NCBI RefSeq assembly: GCF_902705855.1
Contig: NZ_CACSIJ010000014.1
Location: 336,095 to 400,094 of the forward strand
Length of the DNA stretch: 64,000 bases
Source of the DNA: Zhongshania aliphaticivorans
GTDB lineage: Bacteria > Pseudomonadota > Gammaproteobacteria > Pseudomonadales > Spongiibacteraceae
Reading direction: 5' to 3'
Positions 48,873 to 57,253 of this stretch are shown one piece after another (the stretch's first letter is position 1; the number at the start of each line of letters is the position of its first letter). The position numbers and the translations under genes are program-made. Below the pieces are notes generated by a model. It had not been told where the DNA came from. It saw only the letters and a program-made list of their open reading frames with translations, and ran no database searches.

Positions 48873-49017
48873 TTATTCTTCGTTGATCCGCAGGTGGTGG
48901 CTCGCAAGGTCTACAATGCACATGTCTCCTCTCAGGGTAAGCAAGGGTCGCGGTTTTACGGTAGTGCTCACAGATGTCGAAAGACGCGCTATTATTGAGT
49001 ACTTGAAGACACTTTAA
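48873..49017 (+). pseudogene. Frameshifted C-terminal remnant of a RoxA/cytochrome-peroxidase-like gene
   Basis: Read in two frames, this stretch matches the last 45 or so codons of the three-haem cytochrome gene ending at 57253. Frame 1 (from 48873) gives DPQVVARKVYN...SSQGKQGSRF, against NQDVESRKIYN...FSQGNGGHVF. At the TTTT run (48954-48957) the frame slips by +1 and continues VVLTDVERRAIIEYLKTL with a stop at 49015-49017, against DVLNDAERKAIIEYLKTL. Nothing of the catalytic part is present. Sequence has diverged well beyond a recent copy. It is a gene relic rather than a coding gene. Confidence 0.7.
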
Positions 49018-49125: not shown

Positions 49126-49629
49126 ATGACTGATCTTCGTTTAATACTAATTAGCATCATCTTATTTCTCTCTGCGGGCGCGGCGGTGGCTGTGATGGCG
49201 GGAGATAAAGCCCCTGAGTTTAGTCGTGTCGATATGCTTGATGGTCAACGCCACAACTTGACGGACTACGCGGGCAAGGTGGTGTACGTTGATTTTTGGG
49301 CCTCTTGGTGTGGCCCTTGTAGGCAGTCGTTGCCAAGTTTAGAGGCGCTTTATAAAGAACTGGGCGAGCGTGGTTTTGCTGTGCTAGCTATTAACGTAGA
49401 TGCCTACAGCCAAGACGCCAGCAGCTTTTTAAAAGCCTACCCAGTGACTTACCCAGTGCTGCGTGATCCTGACAATAGCTTGCCCGCCGCCTTTGGCGTG
49501 AAGGGTATGCCGACCGCATTTTTGCTAGACAAAAAGGGGCTGGTGCATCGTGTGCACGAGGGCTTTCGCCCCGGCGATGCCGAGCGCCTGCGCAAAGAAG
49601 TGCTGGCACTCTTAGAAGAGGAATCTTGA
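49126..49629 (+). CDS. TlpA/ResA-type thioredoxin-like protein
   Basis: A 167-residue protein with an N-terminal membrane segment or signal peptide (about 4-25), then a thioredoxin fold. Active site W-C-G-P-C with Cys62 and Cys65, in YVDFWASWCGPCRQSLPSLEALY. VKGMPTAFLLDKKG contains the cis-proline. It acts outside the cytoplasmic membrane as a disulfide reductase or oxidase. First of four genes with DUF4266, DUF3570 and ApbE. The DUF4266 ATG lies one base after its stop, so the two are tightly coupled. A natural target is the two-cysteine tail of the DUF4266 protein. Confidence 0.9.
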   Translation: MTDLRLILISIILFLSAGAAVAVMAGDKAPEFSRVDMLDGQRHNLTDYAGKVVYVDFWASWCGPCRQSLPSLEALYKELGERGFAVLAINVDAYSQDASSFLKAYPVTYPVLRDPDNSLPAAFGVKGMPTAFLLDKKGLVHRVHEGFRPGDAERLRKEVLALLEEES

Positions 49630-49630
49630 G

Positions 49631-49843
49631 ATGCGTCTGGTTTTGTTACTACTCAGTTTGTCGGGCTTGGCGGCGTGCGCGGTGGAGCCGGTGGAGGCGT
49701 GGGAGCGCGATTTTCTGGCGCGGCCAGAAATGGCCTGGGACCCAGATGCGCTGGGCAGCTCCTATCGCAACCATGTGCATTTTAGTAAAGAAGCCAGTAA
49801 TGGCGGCGCCTCCGCTGGTGGCGGCGGCTGCGGTTGTAATTGA
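49631..49843 (+). CDS. DUF4266 lipoprotein with Gly/Cys tail
   Basis: A 70-residue small lipoprotein. Signal MRLVLLLLSLSGLAAC with lipobox L-A-A-C (Cys16). The mature part keeps the family pattern: AWERDFLARPEMAWDPDALGSSYRNHVHFSKEAS, then a flexible tail NGGASAGGGGCGCN. Cys67 and Cys69 form a terminal C-G-C, a likely metal- or redox-binding tip or modification site. DUF4266 proteins are typically encoded with DUF3570, TlpA and ApbE. Function unknown. The start directly follows the TlpA stop. Confidence 0.88.
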   Translation: MRLVLLLLSLSGLAACAVEPVEAWERDFLARPEMAWDPDALGSSYRNHVHFSKEASNGGASAGGGGCGCN

Positions 49844-49854
49844 AGGGCGGTGAT

Positions 49855-51054
49855 ATGAGTCAAAACCTAAAAAATAAACGCGCTCTTGCCGCATTAACCA
49901 GCGCCGCATTGGCTATTCCTGGTATGAGTGCGTCGGTGCAGGCCGCTTCCGTGCTGACGGAAACCGTGGTGCAGTACAAGGCCTCGGCCTACCGTGAAGC
50001 AGATTTAGACAGCAGCAAACTTTCCGGTGGCTCCCTTGAGCGCTATGAGATCGACACCCAACAAGTTCGAGCGCAAATGCCGCTGGGTGAGAAAACCGAC
50101 GCCAGCATCGAATTTATGTATGAAACCATGAGTGGTGCGTCGCCGTGGTTTATTCTGCCGGGTCAAGATGGGCCGGTGCAGGTAATGAGCGGCGCCACCA
50201 TTCACGAAGAACGCAAAGACCTGCAGGCTAAGGTTAATCATCTGCTCAACGACAAAACCGTAATTTCTTTGATTGCCGGTGTGTCGGATGAAAAAGATTA
50301 TTTCGCGGTGAACGCGGGGGTGGAGGCGCTTTATGAAATCCCCGATACCCAGCTCACCCTAACGGCTGGCTTAGGTTATAGCGACGACGAGTTAGAGCCG
50401 ACCGACGGCGCTATATTACCAGATCGCATTGAACGCGCGACCAGAGACAGCACCACTGCTTTTGTCGGGCTGTCGCAAATTCTAAGTAAAACCACCGTGG
50501 TGCAGGGCAGTTTGACTTACAGCCTACAGCGGGGCTTTTTATCTGATCCCTACAAAAAAGTTTGGATAGACGATCAAGCCACTACCATGAACGATAGCCG
50601 GCCAGACGACAGGAATCAGTTTGTTGCCCAAGCGAGGCTGCGGCATTTTTTGCCGGACTTAAAAGCAGCCCTGCATTTGGACTATCGTTATTTTGAAGAC
50701 GATTGGGAAGTTGCCTCTAGCACCATAGAGGCAGCGTGGTATCAAAACCTGCCCGGGGGTTGGGTGTTCACACCGTCGCTGCGTTACTACACCCAAAGCC
50801 AAGCTTTCTTCTATGCGCCGTATTTCTTTTCGGCGCGCAATGATGGTTTTGGCTCTGCGGATTATCGTTTGTCGCCCTATGGGGCAATCAGTGTAAAACT
50901 GCGCCTCGAGAAGCGTTGGCAAAGTTTTGACCTGCATGCCGAGTGGGAAAGCTACGAAGCCAGCGCAGATTATTCTTTAGATTCCGTCGATGTAGAAAAC
51001 CCTGCCTTGGTAGAATTTGATATTCTCTCCGTGGGACTTAACTGGCGACTCTAA
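49855..51054 (+). CDS. DUF3570 protein, exported, with flavinylation-like SGAT motif
   Basis: A 399-residue exported protein. The ATG at 49855 follows GGGCGGTGAT; an earlier TTG is rejected. Signal peptide ends near SVQAAS (residue about 30). The rest is rich in alternating strands and ends SVGLNWRL, so an outer-membrane beta barrel is plausible. Two parallel motifs stand out: MSGAS (residues 92-96) and VMSGATIHEER (110-120). S-G-A-T at 112-115 resembles the ApbE flavinylation sequence of NqrC/RnfG (S-G-A-T), and an ApbE gene follows. This would make Thr115 a possible FMN site (inference). Function unknown. Confidence 0.85.
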   Translation: MSQNLKNKRALAALTSAALAIPGMSASVQAASVLTETVVQYKASAYREADLDSSKLSGGSLERYEIDTQQVRAQMPLGEKTDASIEFMYETMSGASPWFILPGQDGPVQVMSGATIHEERKDLQAKVNHLLNDKTVISLIAGVSDEKDYFAVNAGVEALYEIPDTQLTLTAGLGYSDDELEPTDGAILPDRIERATRDSTTAFVGLSQILSKTTVVQGSLTYSLQRGFLSDPYKKVWIDDQATTMNDSRPDDRNQFVAQARLRHFLPDLKAALHLDYRYFEDDWEVASSTIEAAWYQNLPGGWVFTPSLRYYTQSQAFFYAPYFFSARNDGFGSADYRLSPYGAISVKLRLEKRWQSFDLHAEWESYEASADYSLDSVDVENPALVEFDILSVGLNWRL

Positions 51055-51099
51055 AATGCGCGCCGGCATGCTCCTTAAATTCTAACGGAGAGACAGCGC

Positions 51100-51999
51100 G
51101 TGCAGCTTTACCACTATCCTTTCACCGCAATGGCCAGTCCCTGCGAACTGCGTTTATATGGCGAATCCCAAGCATTGGCCGCTGCCGCTGCGGAGGCAGC
51201 CAAAGCCGAAGTTATCCGTATTGAACAAACCTACTCCCGCTACCGCGACGACAGCGTGGTGGGCAAAATCAATGCCGCCGCTGGCGGTGACCCCATCGCT
51301 GTTAACGAAGAAACCTGTGCCTTAATTAATTACGCCACCACCGCTTATACCGAGAGCGGCGGCCTGTTTGATATTAGCTCGGGCGTATTGCGCGAAGTGT
51401 GGAATTTTAAACTCGGCCAACTACCCAGCCCCGCCGCCGTCGCATTTTGTTTAAAGCGGGTGGGGTGGAATAAAGTGCACTGGGAGGCCCCTAATATTTC
51501 TTTGCAGCAAGGAATGGAATTGGACTTTGGCGGCTTCGGCAAAGAATACGCCGCCGATCGCGCCGCCATCATTTGCGAAGAACATGGCATCAGCTACGGC
51601 CTAGTGGAACTGGGCGGCGACATCCGCGTAATTGGCCCCCACCCCGACGGTAGCGCTTGGCAGATTGGTATTCGCAACCCCCGCGATCCCGAAGTGGCGG
51701 TTGCGGTCATACCGCTAAAGACCGGCGGCCTCGCCAGCAGCGGCGACTACGAACGCTTTATGGTGATAGACGGCAAACGCTACAGTCATATACTTAATCC
51801 CCGCACTGGCCGCCCCGTCGACAAACCGATGGCCGGTGTCACCGTTGTTGCACCGCTGTGCTTGCTTGCGGGAACCGCCGCAACCGTCGCCATGTTACAG
51901 GGTGAGAAAGCAGCGCCGACGTTTTTGAATGACCTAGGATTACCGCATTTGTGGATTGATCAAGCGGGAATGCTGGGGGGAGATCTAGTGCCGCACTAA
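51100..51999 (+). CDS. apbE: ApbE-family FAD:protein FMN transferase
   Basis: A 299-residue ApbE enzyme, which attaches FMN covalently to Thr in target proteins. GTG start after GGAGAGAC. Seen: MASPCELRLYG near 11-21, TYSRYRDDSVVGKINA near 45-60, DISSGVLREVWNF near 95, LDFGGFGKEYAADRA near 147 and HILNPRTGRPVDKPMAGVTVVAP near 227 (FAD- and metal-binding). It has no signal peptide or lipobox, unlike usual ApbE, and an in-frame stop at 51076 rules out an N-terminal extension. It closes the TlpA-DUF4266-DUF3570-ApbE operon; the DUF3570 protein is the obvious candidate target. Confidence 0.9.
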   Translation: MQLYHYPFTAMASPCELRLYGESQALAAAAAEAAKAEVIRIEQTYSRYRDDSVVGKINAAAGGDPIAVNEETCALINYATTAYTESGGLFDISSGVLREVWNFKLGQLPSPAAVAFCLKRVGWNKVHWEAPNISLQQGMELDFGGFGKEYAADRAAIICEEHGISYGLVELGGDIRVIGPHPDGSAWQIGIRNPRDPEVAVAVIPLKTGGLASSGDYERFMVIDGKRYSHILNPRTGRPVDKPMAGVTVVAPLCLLAGTAATVAMLQGEKAAPTFLNDLGLPHLWIDQAGMLGGDLVPH

Positions 52000-52293: not shown

Positions 52294-52938
52294 GTGAGAG
52301 TTTATCATTTCTTAAATGAGCGATATGGTTTAGAGGCCATTTCCAATAAAACGCTTAAGGTTTCAAGATTAAAGTCATTGAATGACCCCTTTGAGTATTA
52401 TCATATTGATACTGAAAACTATGGTACTCGGAGTATTTTAAAAGAGCGGCTGAATCACGCAAATAGAGAGCTAGGAATTATTTGCTTTAGTCGAAACTAT
52501 ACAAGCCCAGCCCAGTGGGCACATTATGGAGATTCCCATCGCGGAATCTGCCTTGGGTTTGACATACCTGACAGCGAATTGTTTGATATTGAATACGTAG
52601 AACGCCGCACGGAGGGGAAAGAGTTCAAAAATTCTCTAGACCTTAAAGGGATGCAGTATATTAAGTACATGCTTTCGAAAAAGCATGAGCACTGGAAGTA
52701 TGAGCAAGAAGTAAGAATGTTAGTTCCCTTTCCCGAGAAAATAATGGATGAGCGTCTAATGTTCGTACCTTTCGCTGAAAAGTTCTCCTTGCGTGAAATA
52801 ATGCTTGGCGTTCGATGTGCTACGAGTGCAAAAAAAATAAAGTCCTATCTTGGTCAGGGAAGGGGTTGCGTTCAAGTATATAAAATGGAAATGTCTAAAA
52901 CTGAATATGAAATTCAGTTACCTGAAGTACTGTCCTAA
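52294..52938 (+). CDS. DUF2971 protein
   Basis: A 214-residue protein with a GTG start after AGGTATTAGC. Family pattern: VYHFLNERYGLEAISNKTLKVSRLKSLNDPFEYY near 2-36 and GIICFSRNYTSPAQWAHYGDSHRGICLGFDI near 68-98 (the C-F-S...P-x-x-W-x-x-Y...G-x-x-L-G-F core of DUF2971), with KYEQEVRMLVPF near 140. DUF2971 is common in accessory islands and integron cassettes; its function is unknown. AT-rich relative to neighbours. The stop codon lies inside the left core of a possible attC-like site (52933-53014). Confidence 0.85.
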   Translation: MRVYHFLNERYGLEAISNKTLKVSRLKSLNDPFEYYHIDTENYGTRSILKERLNHANRELGIICFSRNYTSPAQWAHYGDSHRGICLGFDIPDSELFDIEYVERRTEGKEFKNSLDLKGMQYIKYMLSKKHEHWKYEQEVRMLVPFPEKIMDERLMFVPFAEKFSLREIMLGVRCATSAKKIKSYLGQGRGCVQVYKMEMSKTEYEIQLPEVLS

Positions 52939-53014
52939 CAAGAAAGTTTCGTCGCCTGAGATTGGGGGGAGCCCTCGGAGTCCTCCCATTTTTAGCTGAT
53001 GCCTCATGTTAGGC
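52933..53014 (+). repeat. Possible attC-like element between the two DUF2971 genes
   Basis: The 82 bp begins TCCTAAC and ends GTTAGGC, the outer 7 bp being complementary (CCTAACA / TGTTAGG). An internal hairpin TGGGGGGA / TCCTCCCA is present. The upstream stop codon falls in the left core. ATGTTAGG also occurs at 52272-52279, so the 735 bp between would match a gene cassette. No inner R2/L2 match, integrase or second site is seen. A simple terminator-like repeat is the alternative. Confidence 0.35.
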
Positions 53015-53059
53015 CCAAACCGTGGCGTTACATTTATCGGTGCCACATAGGGAGTTAGG

Positions 53060-53896
53060 GTGAATACATATAAATACTTGGGGAGTAGATCTGCGGAGTG
53101 TTTCCTCAAAGACCAAATAATAAGATTTTCTCAACCTAAAGCATTTAATGATCCGTTCGAGCTACAACCAGAGTTTTATGTATTGGATGATGGGGTTATT
53201 GAAGGTGAAGAACTGCCATGTCAGTTTGTTCTACGTGGACATCAATCTGCTTATGAGAAGTATATTATTACGAATCACACAGCAGAAATTCAATCACGAA
53301 AATTAGATGGGAAGAATATCTACTCACAACTGAATGAGAAAATTGGCATTTTGTGTCTTACACAAGCTGAAACACTTATGCCAGTCAATTTCCTAATGTG
53401 GGCACACTATGCTGAGTCACACCAAGGCATAGTGATTGAGTTTAAGTCAGATAGTGAATTCATCCAAAATTCTAGTTTAGTGCACTATCTACCTCATAGG
53501 CCAATTATTGATGCGAAACTTTTGTATGAAAATAAGTATGTGGCTATCGAAGATCTGTACTTTAAATCTGATATTTGGTCCTACGAAAATGAAATTAGGA
53601 TAACCAAGGCATTATCTGGATGTAAAAACTTAAATATCAAAGATGCTTTGGGAAATGAAATATACGTTTCCGAAATTCCACTTGATAGTATTAAGTGCAT
53701 CTATCTAGGTTGTAATTCGAGTGATAGCTTGAAGTCAGCAGCTATTAAACTTCACCAATCATCGGGTACTAATGTTGTCTTCTTAAAGGTACATGATGAA
53801 GAGTATAAGCTTGTACCATATACCAATCTTGGTGGTACTTTGTCAGATGTTTACGAAACCAGCGAACAGCTTCTTTTAGATAGAGAAAAAATGTGA
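53060..53896 (+). CDS. DUF2971 protein, second copy
   Basis: A 278-residue protein; the GTG start (MNTYKYLGSRSAECF) follows AGGGAGTTAGG. Family signatures: QIIRFSQPKAFNDPFELQPEFY near 18-40, IGILCLTQAETLMPVNFLMWAHYAESHQGIVIEF near 95-128, and SYENEIRITKAL near 175. The two DUF2971 copies share the N-terminal LKSLNDPFE-like element but are divergent. AT-rich. Function unknown. No attC-like element is seen after it. Confidence 0.85.
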   Translation: MNTYKYLGSRSAECFLKDQIIRFSQPKAFNDPFELQPEFYVLDDGVIEGEELPCQFVLRGHQSAYEKYIITNHTAEIQSRKLDGKNIYSQLNEKIGILCLTQAETLMPVNFLMWAHYAESHQGIVIEFKSDSEFIQNSSLVHYLPHRPIIDAKLLYENKYVAIEDLYFKSDIWSYENEIRITKALSGCKNLNIKDALGNEIYVSEIPLDSIKCIYLGCNSSDSLKSAAIKLHQSSGTNVVFLKVHDEEYKLVPYTNLGGTLSDVYETSEQLLLDREKM

Positions 53897-54062: not shown

Positions 54063-54563
54063 ATGAATTTTGTAGAAGAACACATTTTTGATGTCCCCCT
54101 TGAAGTCGTCGAGCGCATGTATTTTGACACAGCATTTTGCCCTCGTAAGTATGAAGAGCTGGGGCTTGAGAATATCAAGGTTGTGGGCAGTAGCGACGAT
54201 CCAGAACAGTATTTTGTCGACTGCAGTTTTGTTATGGAGCCCTCTTTGCCACTGCCGGGTTTCATCAAGAAATTTCTACCCGGTGGGGAAAAAATTAGCG
54301 TTCGTCAGATTGATCGTTGGAATACTAAAACTCGGAAGGGCGAGCTCGAAATTCAGCTCCAGGGGCTAGAAAAGGTACACATCCGAAGCGTAATGACACT
54401 AAAGGCTCACGAGCGCGGTGCCGTCAACGTTATGCAGTGGACCGTGGAATGTAAAATTCCTTTAATTGGCAACAAGCTTGCCGATTTTCTTGGCAAAGAT
54501 ATTCGTAGCAAGGCAGCCAATGATCACGCTGCGAGTCTCAAGATTCTGCAAGACTATCTATAG
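54063..54563 (+). CDS. DUF2505 family protein
   Basis: A 166-residue soluble protein of the DUF2505 (START/SRPBCC-like) type. MNFVEEHIFDVPLEVVERMYFDTAFC is the usual opening, with the later strands and helix GKDIRSKAANDHAASLKIL. A hydrophobic ligand pocket is expected from the fold. Function unknown. It is alone after the AT-rich insert, at the return to normal base composition. The ribosome-binding site is weak (AGAAG). Confidence 0.75.
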   Translation: MNFVEEHIFDVPLEVVERMYFDTAFCPRKYEELGLENIKVVGSSDDPEQYFVDCSFVMEPSLPLPGFIKKFLPGGEKISVRQIDRWNTKTRKGELEIQLQGLEKVHIRSVMTLKAHERGAVNVMQWTVECKIPLIGNKLADFLGKDIRSKAANDHAASLKILQDYL

Positions 54564-54793
54564 CCTAGCTTGCGTTTCATAAGCGATGCCCAAGCGTGTC
54601 GCTACATCCTTTTCTACCTTGTGCTCTTTGGGCTCAGCAGATGGCACCCAAATTTGGTTTGGCTCGGCCGGACAATGAGTGGCACGGCTTACCAATATGG
54701 ACGATTGGCGGGTGGTGCATACTGGGCTATAAAATAAGTTCAGTTTGCCTCGTTTTACGCCGTATTTGTTGGCGGGGGCCTCAGGAGTGCCGC

Positions 54794-57253
54794 ATGCGCC
54801 GTTTTCGTCTAGCAAATAGTTTACTCATCTCAGGCTTGTTATCGCTTGCCGCTTGCGGCGGTGGTAGCAGCGGCAGCCCTCAGGGTGGCGGCGGTGGCAC
54901 TCCGAGTGCCGGCAATAGCGGTTCGGCAGAAGAGTTCTTTCAAACCCGTTTGCAAACTTCGTCTGGCTTTTGCCGTACCTGCCATATTCCCGATGGAGTA
55001 GCGGATACCGCCGACGGCGATGGTTTGATGTTGTCTAGCAATGCCGCCGATGATTTCCGTTTGCTGCGAGCGTCTTGGGAGACCCTTGGTGGCGGGGTGG
55101 AAAGCAATCCTTTATTAATTGAGCCCAGTGATCCTAGTGAGCCGCACAGCGGTGGTAAGCCGTGGCCGGTGGGAAGTCAGCCTTATGAAGCTATGCGAAC
55201 GCTATTGGCTTGTTGGGACAATCCGGATAGCTGTGCGTTGAGCGGCGGAGGTAGTGGCCCTGCGCCAAATTTAGAGCCTTTGCTGGGCAGTGCGCGGGGC
55301 GGCCACGTTTGGTTTGATTATTGCGGTGCAGACGATAATGGTAATCCGAGACCTGACAGTGCGCTGTTACCGCCTGATCCGCGTTCGATGGTGCAACCTG
55401 GCATAAGCAATGGCAAAGCGGTGGCATTTAATGCCTTTTGGAAAGATTGTCATATTGATCCTGAGTTAGTCGGCGAAAAGCCTCATCCAGAAACCTGCGG
55501 TCAATTGCGTGAGAGTTACGCAATGGGGGCGCCAATCATGGAGGGTAATGGGCAGCTGGGTGCAGCTACTACTTTTGCCGGGCAACAGCCTCACGGTCTG
55601 TCGGCGGTGAGTGCCGATCAATACAATATGATGTGGTTGCTTTGGGGCCTGCCAGGTCGGCCAGATAATTTTGATCAGCTAGTGGCAGAGCGCCACGGCT
55701 TCGGTCCGGTTTTGAGTGGTCCCGATGCGTCTCGTAACCCCTACCCTCTACAGGGCGAAGATCCAAATCTAACGAATGGTGGCTCTGGTGTTCTGCCACA
55801 GGGTTTGACGCAAACACGTAATAATGACGGTACATACAGCGGCTATATTGCGGCCAACTGCCAAGGTTGCCACAGCACGCCGGTGGAAACCGCTGATGGG
55901 ATTGAATACCACTATGGTGCAGGTGGAGGTTTGTTGGATGCAAGTACCTCTGCGCGTGACTTTGGCGCCTTGGGTGGCGCGGGAACTTTGTTGATTGATC
56001 GCGCTGGTTTTGGTGGGCGAGTTCGGGGCACTAACAATGCGCAGTTTGCCAATGTGCTGGCACTACTGGGTAGCTTTGAAAACGCTGATCCAATGTCGTT
56101 TGGGCAAATTCTTAATAATGGTTCGACTGCTACCGGAGACACGCCTGCCTGGTGGAATGTTGGGCATCGGCCAGTCAAGTTTGTTGATGCCATGTTCTCT
56201 GGCGACGCGGTGCGAGTGGATTTTGCACTTTATTATCCACTGCTGGATAAAAACCCGTTGATCGATGGCGAAGCCCCTGGGGTTTTTGATATGGAGCGTG
56301 TCGATCAATGGATGAGTGAGAATGTACAGTACGGCGACCACTGGATTATGGCGCAGAAATCACCCGAGTATCCGGGAGAGATTGATGAACCTTTGGCCGA
56401 GCAGGGCGCGGTGTTGTTCCACACCAAAAACCTGTGGGCCGCAAACGTTAATAACCCCGTGCAACAGCCTAGTGAAGGCAATGGTAGCTGTGCTGGATGC
56501 CACGGCGCTTATTCACCGCGCTATGTGAACGATCCAAGTTATTTGGCAAGTCCAGCCTTGGAAGGTATGGCTAGCTACATCACGCCTATTGAAATTATCG
56601 GGACTGATCGTGTTCGTTTAGATACGTTTAATGAAGGCACGAATCAAGGCTTATCTGGAACGTTTGTGGGTTATCCCGAAACTGCCGGTACTGCGCAGGA
56701 TTGCCGAGTTCAGAATATGGAGTCATTACGTGACGGTCGCCCCAAGGGGTATGCTGCGCCGCCACTTTACGGTATTTGGGCAACTGCGCCTTATTTACAT
56801 AATGGCTCGGTACCAAATATTGCTGCCGTGTTGGATTCGTCGGCACGCCCAGCAATTTGGCGCAGAGTGTCTAATTCCGCTCGGGCGGATCAGCAGGGCC
56901 AAGTGGTGATGGGCTTTGATTATAATTTTGCGCGTGCCTATGACCAGCAAAACGTAGGTTGGGATTACGAAGAACTAGATTGCGGCGGAGATATTAGCTT
57001 GCCGTATTTAGATTGCACGCCGCTTGATCCGCTGGTGGATGCTATTTTGCAAATTCCTGTGAATGCGCTGTTTTCTAATCTTTTATTGGCTTGGAATATC
57101 ACCAATCCACCTATATTGAGCAATCAGGATGTGGAGAGTCGGAAAATTTATAACACAGCTATGTTTAGTCAAGGTAATGGCGGGCATGTGTTTAGTGATG
57201 TATTAAATGACGCCGAGCGCAAAGCGATTATTGAATACTTGAAAACCCTTTAA
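54794..57253 (+). CDS. Three-haem c-type cytochrome lipoprotein, RoxA/cytochrome-peroxidase-like
   Basis: An 819-residue outer-envelope cytochrome. The start is the ATG after AGGAG that gives signal peptide and lipobox L-A-A-C; an ORF beginning 198 bases earlier is rejected. After a Gly/Ser-rich linker come three C-x-x-C-H motifs: CRTCH, CQGCH and CAGCH. The last part has GYAAPPLYGIWATAPYLHNGSVPNI near 645-670, the PPL.G.W..APYLHNGS signature of di-haem peroxidases and the rubber oxygenases RoxA/RoxB. Inference: an extracytoplasmic haem oxygenase or peroxidase. The first haem is an addition to the two-haem pattern. A related remnant lies at 48873. Confidence 0.8.
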   Translation: MRRFRLANSLLISGLLSLAACGGGSSGSPQGGGGGTPSAGNSGSAEEFFQTRLQTSSGFCRTCHIPDGVADTADGDGLMLSSNAADDFRLLRASWETLGGGVESNPLLIEPSDPSEPHSGGKPWPVGSQPYEAMRTLLACWDNPDSCALSGGGSGPAPNLEPLLGSARGGHVWFDYCGADDNGNPRPDSALLPPDPRSMVQPGISNGKAVAFNAFWKDCHIDPELVGEKPHPETCGQLRESYAMGAPIMEGNGQLGAATTFAGQQPHGLSAVSADQYNMMWLLWGLPGRPDNFDQLVAERHGFGPVLSGPDASRNPYPLQGEDPNLTNGGSGVLPQGLTQTRNNDGTYSGYIAANCQGCHSTPVETADGIEYHYGAGGGLLDASTSARDFGALGGAGTLLIDRAGFGGRVRGTNNAQFANVLALLGSFENADPMSFGQILNNGSTATGDTPAWWNVGHRPVKFVDAMFSGDAVRVDFALYYPLLDKNPLIDGEAPGVFDMERVDQWMSENVQYGDHWIMAQKSPEYPGEIDEPLAEQGAVLFHTKNLWAANVNNPVQQPSEGNGSCAGCHGAYSPRYVNDPSYLASPALEGMASYITPIEIIGTDRVRLDTFNEGTNQGLSGTFVGYPETAGTAQDCRVQNMESLRDGRPKGYAAPPLYGIWATAPYLHNGSVPNIAAVLDSSARPAIWRRVSNSARADQQGQVVMGFDYNFARAYDQQNVGWDYEELDCGGDISLPYLDCTPLDPLVDAILQIPVNALFSNLLLAWNITNPPILSNQDVESRKIYNTAMFSQGNGGHVFSDVLNDAERKAIIEYLKTL

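Follow-up and report, generated by a model that had tools for sequence, protein, structure and literature searches.

The window analysed here, a 64,000-nucleotide stretch of the Zhongshania aliphaticivorans contig NZ_CACSIJ010000014.1, carries at positions 49126–51999 four genes in tandem on the + strand. They encode a TlpA/ResA-like thioredoxin, a small DUF4266 lipoprotein, a DUF3570 protein and ApbE, the FAD:protein FMN transferase (FAD, flavin adenine dinucleotide; FMN, flavin mononucleotide), with intergenic gaps of 1, 11 and 45 bases. The first-pass annotation of this DNA, made from its letters alone, had placed apbE in one operon with the DUF3570 gene, and Pfam bears out the order TlpA/DUF4266/DUF3570/ApbE. 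The tlpA product (49126–49629; Redoxin/AhpC-TSA, E 1.5e-28) has an N-terminal signal sequence and a WCGPC motif; its top NCBIfam match, ResA, scores 110.7 bits, under that model's cut-off of 170. The DUF4266 protein (49631–49843; E 3.2e-21) has the lipobox LAAC and ends in GGGCGCN, the C-G-C tail noticed in the first pass being followed by one residue. Across 121 DUF4266 matches, a C-x-C lies within four residues of the C-terminus in 119, and a lipobox-like pattern is present in 87.

The DUF3570 gene (49855–51054; E 1.3e-61, 209.1 bits against a gathering threshold of 25 for PF12094) encodes a predicted 16-strand outer-membrane barrel, starting at the ATG at 49855, with a signal peptide that is probably cleaved after VQA (residue 30). 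Counted from this ATG, the SGAT motif (50188–50199) comprises S112-G113-A114-T115, in agreement with the acceptor Thr115 proposed earlier. A related upstream motif had been proposed as well, 20 residues away; it exists as SGAS (50131–50142, residues 93–96, predicted acceptor Ser96) in a conserved column, and the actual spacing is 19. The protein is 98% identical to its Zhongshania marina counterpart (NZ_PQGG01000024), and a single-protein query of genome contigs matches two close Zhongshania records only. Genome searches find one DUF3570 protein and, on contig C13, another ApbE, whose signal is of the lipoprotein type (locus L068). A DsbD gene is absent from the cluster, the genome's only DsbD_TM match lying on contig C11.

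The operon's own ApbE (51100–51999; E 1.2e-75, 255 bits against a gathering threshold of 25.6 for PF02424) has TM1553 (1vrm, E 1.8e-38) as its nearest solved relative. It starts MQLYHYPFTAMASPCE, enters its domain at FTAMASPCE and has neither signal peptide nor lipobox; the Z. marina enzyme (locus L063) begins with the same residues. An in-frame TAA at 51076–51078 bars an N-terminal extension, since only seven sense codons, with no ATG, GTG or TTG among them, separate it from the GTG at 51100. A signal peptide is therefore excluded, barring a frameshift in the assembly, and a misplaced start, which we considered, falls with it. On this point the earlier description, a signal-less ApbE behind an in-frame stop, holds in full.

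Covalent FMN is carried on a motif of the S-G-A-T type in NqrC and RnfG. Those systems combine an FMN-binding domain with a lipoprotein ApbE, whereas the Zhongshania system combines an outer-membrane-type barrel with a signal-less ApbE. Whether the DUF3570/ApbE pairing had been tested was left open in the first pass; it has been, in Chlorobium luteolum (Meheust et al. 2021, PMC8238504, cited here and below from its available sections). Specifically, co-expression of the C. luteolum DUF3570 protein with its ApbE in E. coli gives flavin fluorescence on DUF3570, which is lost only when both [S/T]GA[S/T] motifs carry alanine. The protein was found mostly in the pellet and was purified denatured, so that evidently a chain not folded as an outer-membrane barrel can be modified. 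The same paper describes ApbE/DUF3570/thioredoxin-like/DUF4266 clusters with DsbD, plus 316 without it. The window shares with the published set the four families, the two motifs and the DUF4266 CxC tail; it differs from the DsbD-type cluster in lacking DsbD, which is present in a sister cluster of the genus (locus L052). The core of the system, a DUF3570 family loaded with flavin by its partner ApbE, is already known, and the published co-expression and mutagenesis support the initial picture of an extracytoplasmic redox system in which DUF3570 carries FMN attached by ApbE. By extension from this experiment on a homologue, the Zhongshania protein is very probably flavinylated.

The available sections of PMC8238504 and PMC12052999 ascribe extracytosolic flavinylation to secreted ApbE. 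The cytosolic ApbE cases described in PMC12052999, as far as its available sections go, are the enzyme that serves a soluble fumarate reductase in Klebsiella pneumoniae and trypanosomatid fusions. K. pneumoniae resembles Zhongshania in holding a signal-less ApbE beside an exported one in a single genome; the substrates differ, the K. pneumoniae one being soluble and the linked Zhongshania one bearing a signal peptide. Within the literature searched, DUF3570 and DUF4266 are named in PMC8238504 only, and a word search of its main text returns neither 'barrel' nor 'porin'. The missing ApbE signal is undiscussed in the available sections of PMC8238504, of the 2025 review PMC12052999 and of a 2024 follow-up study, PMC11334425 (preprint PMC10979944). 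Pairing an exported barrel with a clade of signal-less ApbE is a consistent and testable variant.

For comparison, DUF3570 was found in 13 of 21 genomes of the family, at least 95 of 369 of the class and 29 of 398 of the phylum, in samples that overlap. The first 101 regions contain DUF3570 in 100, DUF4266 in 94, TlpA in 81 and ApbE in 64; they include the second-ApbE region L068, which lacks DUF3570, and the duplicate pair L003/L063 from one Z. marina contig. Later additions comprise 20 regions and two Hymenobacter plasmid regions. A scan of 80 genomes, read among the matches listed, covers most DUF3570-bearing genomes and some relatives without the family. For alignment, 116 of 126 DUF3570 matches were kept (over 100 bits, 331–559 residues, identical C-termini removed). 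Set aside were fragments and three proteins of about 900 residues (L069:5391-8144, L080 and L092:5366-8104), which are DUF3570 proteins with SGAT motifs in their own right.

Linkage analysis reveals that the missing signal is shared widely. Among 131 non-redundant ApbEs, one truncated protein being set aside, those linked to DUF3570 (within 3 kilobases on the same strand) are signal-less in 55 of 59 cases; the unlinked ones, most of which come from those genomes too, lack it in 8 of 71, the other 63 having a signal. Five of these eight belong to the same sub-family (L118, L120, L181, L194 and L216), and three are doubtful calls. Moving the hydrophobicity limit from 1.2 to 2.2 in five thresholds leaves 53–55 of 59 linked enzymes signal-less and 58–65 of 71 unlinked ones with a signal. 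When 144 ApbEs are placed in one tree, the split chosen as the best separator of the two kinds delimits a single clade that unites 74 of 77 enzymes without a signal and has no member among the 67 exported ones, at a support of 0.974. The signal-less enzymes outside it are L161, with a weak hydrophobic stretch, L164, which looks twin-arginine, and L186, near a contig end. Clade members also share their domain start: a pattern beginning AM lies near the start in 68 of 77 signal-less against 1 of 67 exported enzymes, and a PC[EQDR] stretch with a hydrophobic residue next occurs in 62 of 77 against 0 of 67.

The substrates of these enzymes appear to be exported. In 69 of 71 DUF3570 proteins with a signal-less ApbE, a hydrophobic stretch with a mean of at least 1.0 lies ahead of the first strand; a limit of 1.5 leaves 60 of the 71, and in one of the two exceptions at 1.0 the frame used lacks the N-terminal part. 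Of the 71 gene pairs, 64 are measurable, and in 52 of these DUF3570 and apbE overlap or are no more than 150 bases apart. By these sequence-based calls, a missing signal peptide is the rule for DUF3570-linked ApbE. The view of the window enzyme as an odd one out is rejected by the clade result, and the missing signal peptide, the main objection of the first-pass annotation, is the mark of a clade and no oddity of the Zhongshania genome.

The motifs vary together with the enzyme. The SGAS column reads [ST]GA[ST] in 81 of the 116 homologues, more than chance would give, and two motifs lie inside the loop in 19 of 116. Within 6 kilobases, a signal-less ApbE accompanies 62 of the 81 and a truncated ApbE 1, while 18 are without the enzyme; the 35 other barrels divide into 9 with a signal-less ApbE, 5 with an exported one and 21 without ApbE. 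The nine read TGSS (four), TGST, IGAS and SGSS, or have the motif shifted within the loop (two). The co-variation check proposed at the outset, once run, gives a glycine-type motif or close variant in all 71 barrels with a signal-less ApbE, 9 of them variant or shifted, against 0 of 18 SSAS/TSAS barrels with such an enzyme. These 18 have an exported ApbE in 4 cases, three in the class and one on a Hymenobacter plasmid, and none in 14; the fifth barrel with an exported ApbE is L145. Fisher's exact test of enzyme type against motif type gives p 4e-6, which is a guide only because the sequences are related. In the aligned set, the glycine motif tracks the signal-less ApbE, and motif and enzyme type co-vary. 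The suggestion that motif-bearing barrels without a complete nearby ApbE break this pattern was rejected: 17 of the 19 such loci belong to genomes with a signal-less ApbE elsewhere, 11 traced in the first locus sets and six in loci read later. The remaining two, L132 and L146, each have the dihaem neighbour that is usual at SSAS loci.

The SSAS/TSAS loci, mostly without ApbE within 6 kilobases, are possibly a flavin-free form of the module. Most SSAS barrels have close by a two-CxxCH protein about 890 residues long, and the one such neighbour scanned against Pfam matches HZS-alpha. At loci L132–L151, SSAS-type barrels occur with TlpA and DUF4266, and often also with a dihaem protein resembling HZS-alpha and with small barrels of outer-membrane-protein type.

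The position of the motifs in the protein was approached by setting 16 strands by eye on the window DUF3570 and measuring the segments between them across the 116 homologues. The seven turns of one side are short, with median lengths of 4, 4, 3, 4, 2, 3 and 3 and little spread except in the last, whereas the loops of the other side have medians of 1, 35, 2, 26, 30, 5, 18 and 17. SGAS and SGAT both lie in loop 2 of the long side, the loop of median length 35. This end of the barrel also holds a large share of the best-conserved residues (SDPYK, RPD.R, DDW and RYY.QSQA.F). The last strand ends in WRL in the window protein and in YSF or YEF in some relatives. In outer-membrane barrels the short-turn side is normally periplasmic. 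The alternation of loop lengths, the presence of a signal peptide and the way in which the last strand ends together form the pattern expected of an outer-membrane barrel, and they fit a sequence model in which DUF3570 has 16 strands and displays its motifs in an outward loop. A flavin could hardly be added to such a loop after insertion, which fits attachment before export.

Downstream, the cluster neighbours a haem protein. A gene at 54596–57253 (+ strand, likely start 54794), 2.6 kilobases beyond apbE, encodes a RoxA-like lipoprotein with a lipobox and three CxxCH motifs (RoxA-like_Cyt-c, PF21419, E 6.1e-21), a possible partner of the module. Residues 215–850 of the piece 54701–57250, its last 636 residues, match PDB 4b2n (E 2.2e-100), which carries the table label '70 kDa protein' and which we take to be the RoxA rubber oxygenase. 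Compared with RoxA, the Zhongshania protein has an extra N-terminal part with a third CxxCH and the lipobox, and its gene lies near a flavin/thiol module. Directly upstream of tlpA, a remnant of about 140 bases at 48878–49017 (+ strand) is the broken 3' end of another RoxA-like gene. Its pieces, in two frames, resemble a RoxA-like C-terminus, and blastn to the Z. marina locus L307 gives a single match of 94.3% identity from 48878 through the operon; at the position of the remnant, L307 has a 648-residue frame containing two CxxCH motifs.

The same neighbourhood recurs in the family. The shorter DUF3570 type of the window sits among RoxA-like haem proteins, whereas the long type in the same genus (about 440 residues, locus L052) has a DsbD gene between DUF3570 and ApbE. 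Each of the nine short-type family regions re-read at 13.5–19 kilobases (L306–L311 and L313–L315) contains a RoxA-like gene, four of them on both sides of the cluster. Genome-wide, PF21419 matches of at least 74 bits occur in 10 of 10 short-type family genomes against 1 of 11 without the short type (p 3e-5), at a limit picked after the data were seen, two genomes without the short type having 66-bit matches. The single positive genome without the short type, G376 of the same genus, keeps a signal-less ApbE and has no DUF3570 match; this ApbE lies at L181:5956-6864 with a RoxA-like gene about 8 kilobases downstream (L305), as gene decay or another substrate would explain. No paper treating ApbE and RoxA together was found in the literature searched, and the haem-protein neighbourhood of the DUF3570 cluster is undescribed in those papers.

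Collectively, these observations suggest a route in which the cofactor comes first and export second. Soon after synthesis, ApbE would transfer FMN from cytosolic FAD to Ser96 and Thr115 of the unfolded DUF3570 precursor. Sec would then export the flavin-bearing chain and the barrel would insert into the outer membrane, where loop 2 would hold both flavins on its outward face or in the outer vestibule. Thiol electrons would reach the flavins from the periplasm through TlpA and the CxC lipoprotein DUF4266, joined in the sister cluster by DsbD. In the family of the window, the DUF3570 flavins may further exchange electrons with the triheme RoxA-like lipoproteins as possible terminal partners; the extra N-terminal haem could serve as a natural entry point. 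To this model as a whole, from cytosolic loading and Sec export to thiol electron supply and a possible RoxA exchange, we assign a probability of roughly 0.55. Taken singly, attachment of FMN in the cytosol is a reasonably favoured step, and the RoxA-like partnership is tentative. The stricter composite, in which a distinct cytosolic ApbE clade loads two FMNs before Sec and the surface flavin is the electron partner of the triheme lipoproteins, is likewise put forward as speculative.

If the model is correct, exported flavoproteins have a second assembly route, Sec passes a flavin-bearing chain, the modification of an outward loop is explained, and a cell-surface flavoprotein is made without export of FAD. 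On the stricter composite, relatives of Zhongshania would have a flavin–haem electron path on the cell surface. From the RoxA neighbourhood comes a candidate for the partner of a DUF3570 protein.

The strongest alternative assigns the barrel to the exported ApbE of contig C13 and leaves the operon ApbE to a cytosolic protein. The lipoprotein-type signal of that second enzyme suits this division of labour, as does the cytosolic K. pneumoniae ApbE with its soluble fumarate reductase (PMC12052999, available sections), and the signal-less ApbE of G376, standing without a DUF3570 match, fits either this alternative or gene decay. We nevertheless consider it improbable: the operon-type ApbE follows the motif class of DUF3570 and its neighbourhood, and clustering of neighbours at 98 loci yields no same-strand family, identified or not, beyond DUF3570, TlpA, ApbE and DUF4266 in more than 18 of them.

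Slightly less probable again is that the signal-less ApbE enters the periplasm in another way, by release or in company with a partner, and that the barrel receives its flavin there while unfolded. The signal peptide of DUF3570 and the published assignment of extracytosolic flavinylation to secreted ApbE (PMC8238504 and PMC12052999, available sections) speak for it; by the hydrophobicity rule, however, 0 of the 55 linked signal-less enzymes has a signal-like stretch, the N-termini inspected show no lipobox or twin arginine, the trait marks one clade, and FAD is available in the cytosol. That the motifs are relics in the Zhongshania lineage, on an unflavinylated barrel in a thiol-only system, is very improbable: the SSAS/TSAS barrels, without ApbE within 6 kilobases in 14 of 18 and mostly retaining TlpA and DUF4266, indicate that a module lacking the glycine motif is possible, but all 10 short-type family loci retain the two motifs together with an ApbE frame of 297–320 residues.

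Several points weigh against the model. Signal peptides were called by a hydrophobicity rule and not by SignalP. Seven barrels with a signal-less ApbE bear a variant motif (TGSS, TGST, IGAS or SGSS), 18 of the 81 motif-bearing barrels are those with no ApbE within 6 kilobases, and genome G389 has SGAS in the loop (L265) with an exported enzyme as its sole ApbE match (L288). The barrel model is drawn from strands set by eye and from loop lengths; in some homologues the short-side turn b14–b15 is as long as 27 residues, and on the long side two of the loops have the medians of just 1 and 2 given above. An AlphaFold prediction of the mature protein from a single sequence gave a predicted local distance difference test score (pLDDT) of 32.6 and a predicted template modelling score (pTM) of 0.25 and was not used, and the search for a solved relative of DUF3570 returned a best PDB match of E 0.56. 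As to the translocon, SecYEG passes chains with bulky attachments, as reportedly found by Bonardi et al. in 2011. Conductance-based estimates put its pore at about 0.4 nm (PMC6028853), a width that lends the idea no support. For the haem partnership, the RoxA match of the tenth family genome, G384, lies about 13 kilobases away; outside the family, RoxA-like genes occur in 2 of 7 short-type loci (L125 and L128), three of the seven loci being on short contigs; and two DUF2971 genes and a reading frame at 54063–54563 separate apbE from the RoxA-like gene in the window.

The viral contigs scanned with the DUF3570 alignment contain no relative. The two DUF2971 genes are adjacent at 52294–53896, and other genes occupy this gap in L061, which makes it a possible insertion hotspot. 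In G385, a relative of Zhongshania, the TlpA-DUF4266-DUF3570 unit is duplicated in tandem (L052:5476-9734) with a single ApbE in the region. In genome G318, frames with 10, 18 and 24 CxxCH motifs lie on the strand opposite to a short-type DUF3570/ApbE pair (L126:477-4243) and represent a very haem-rich repeat protein.

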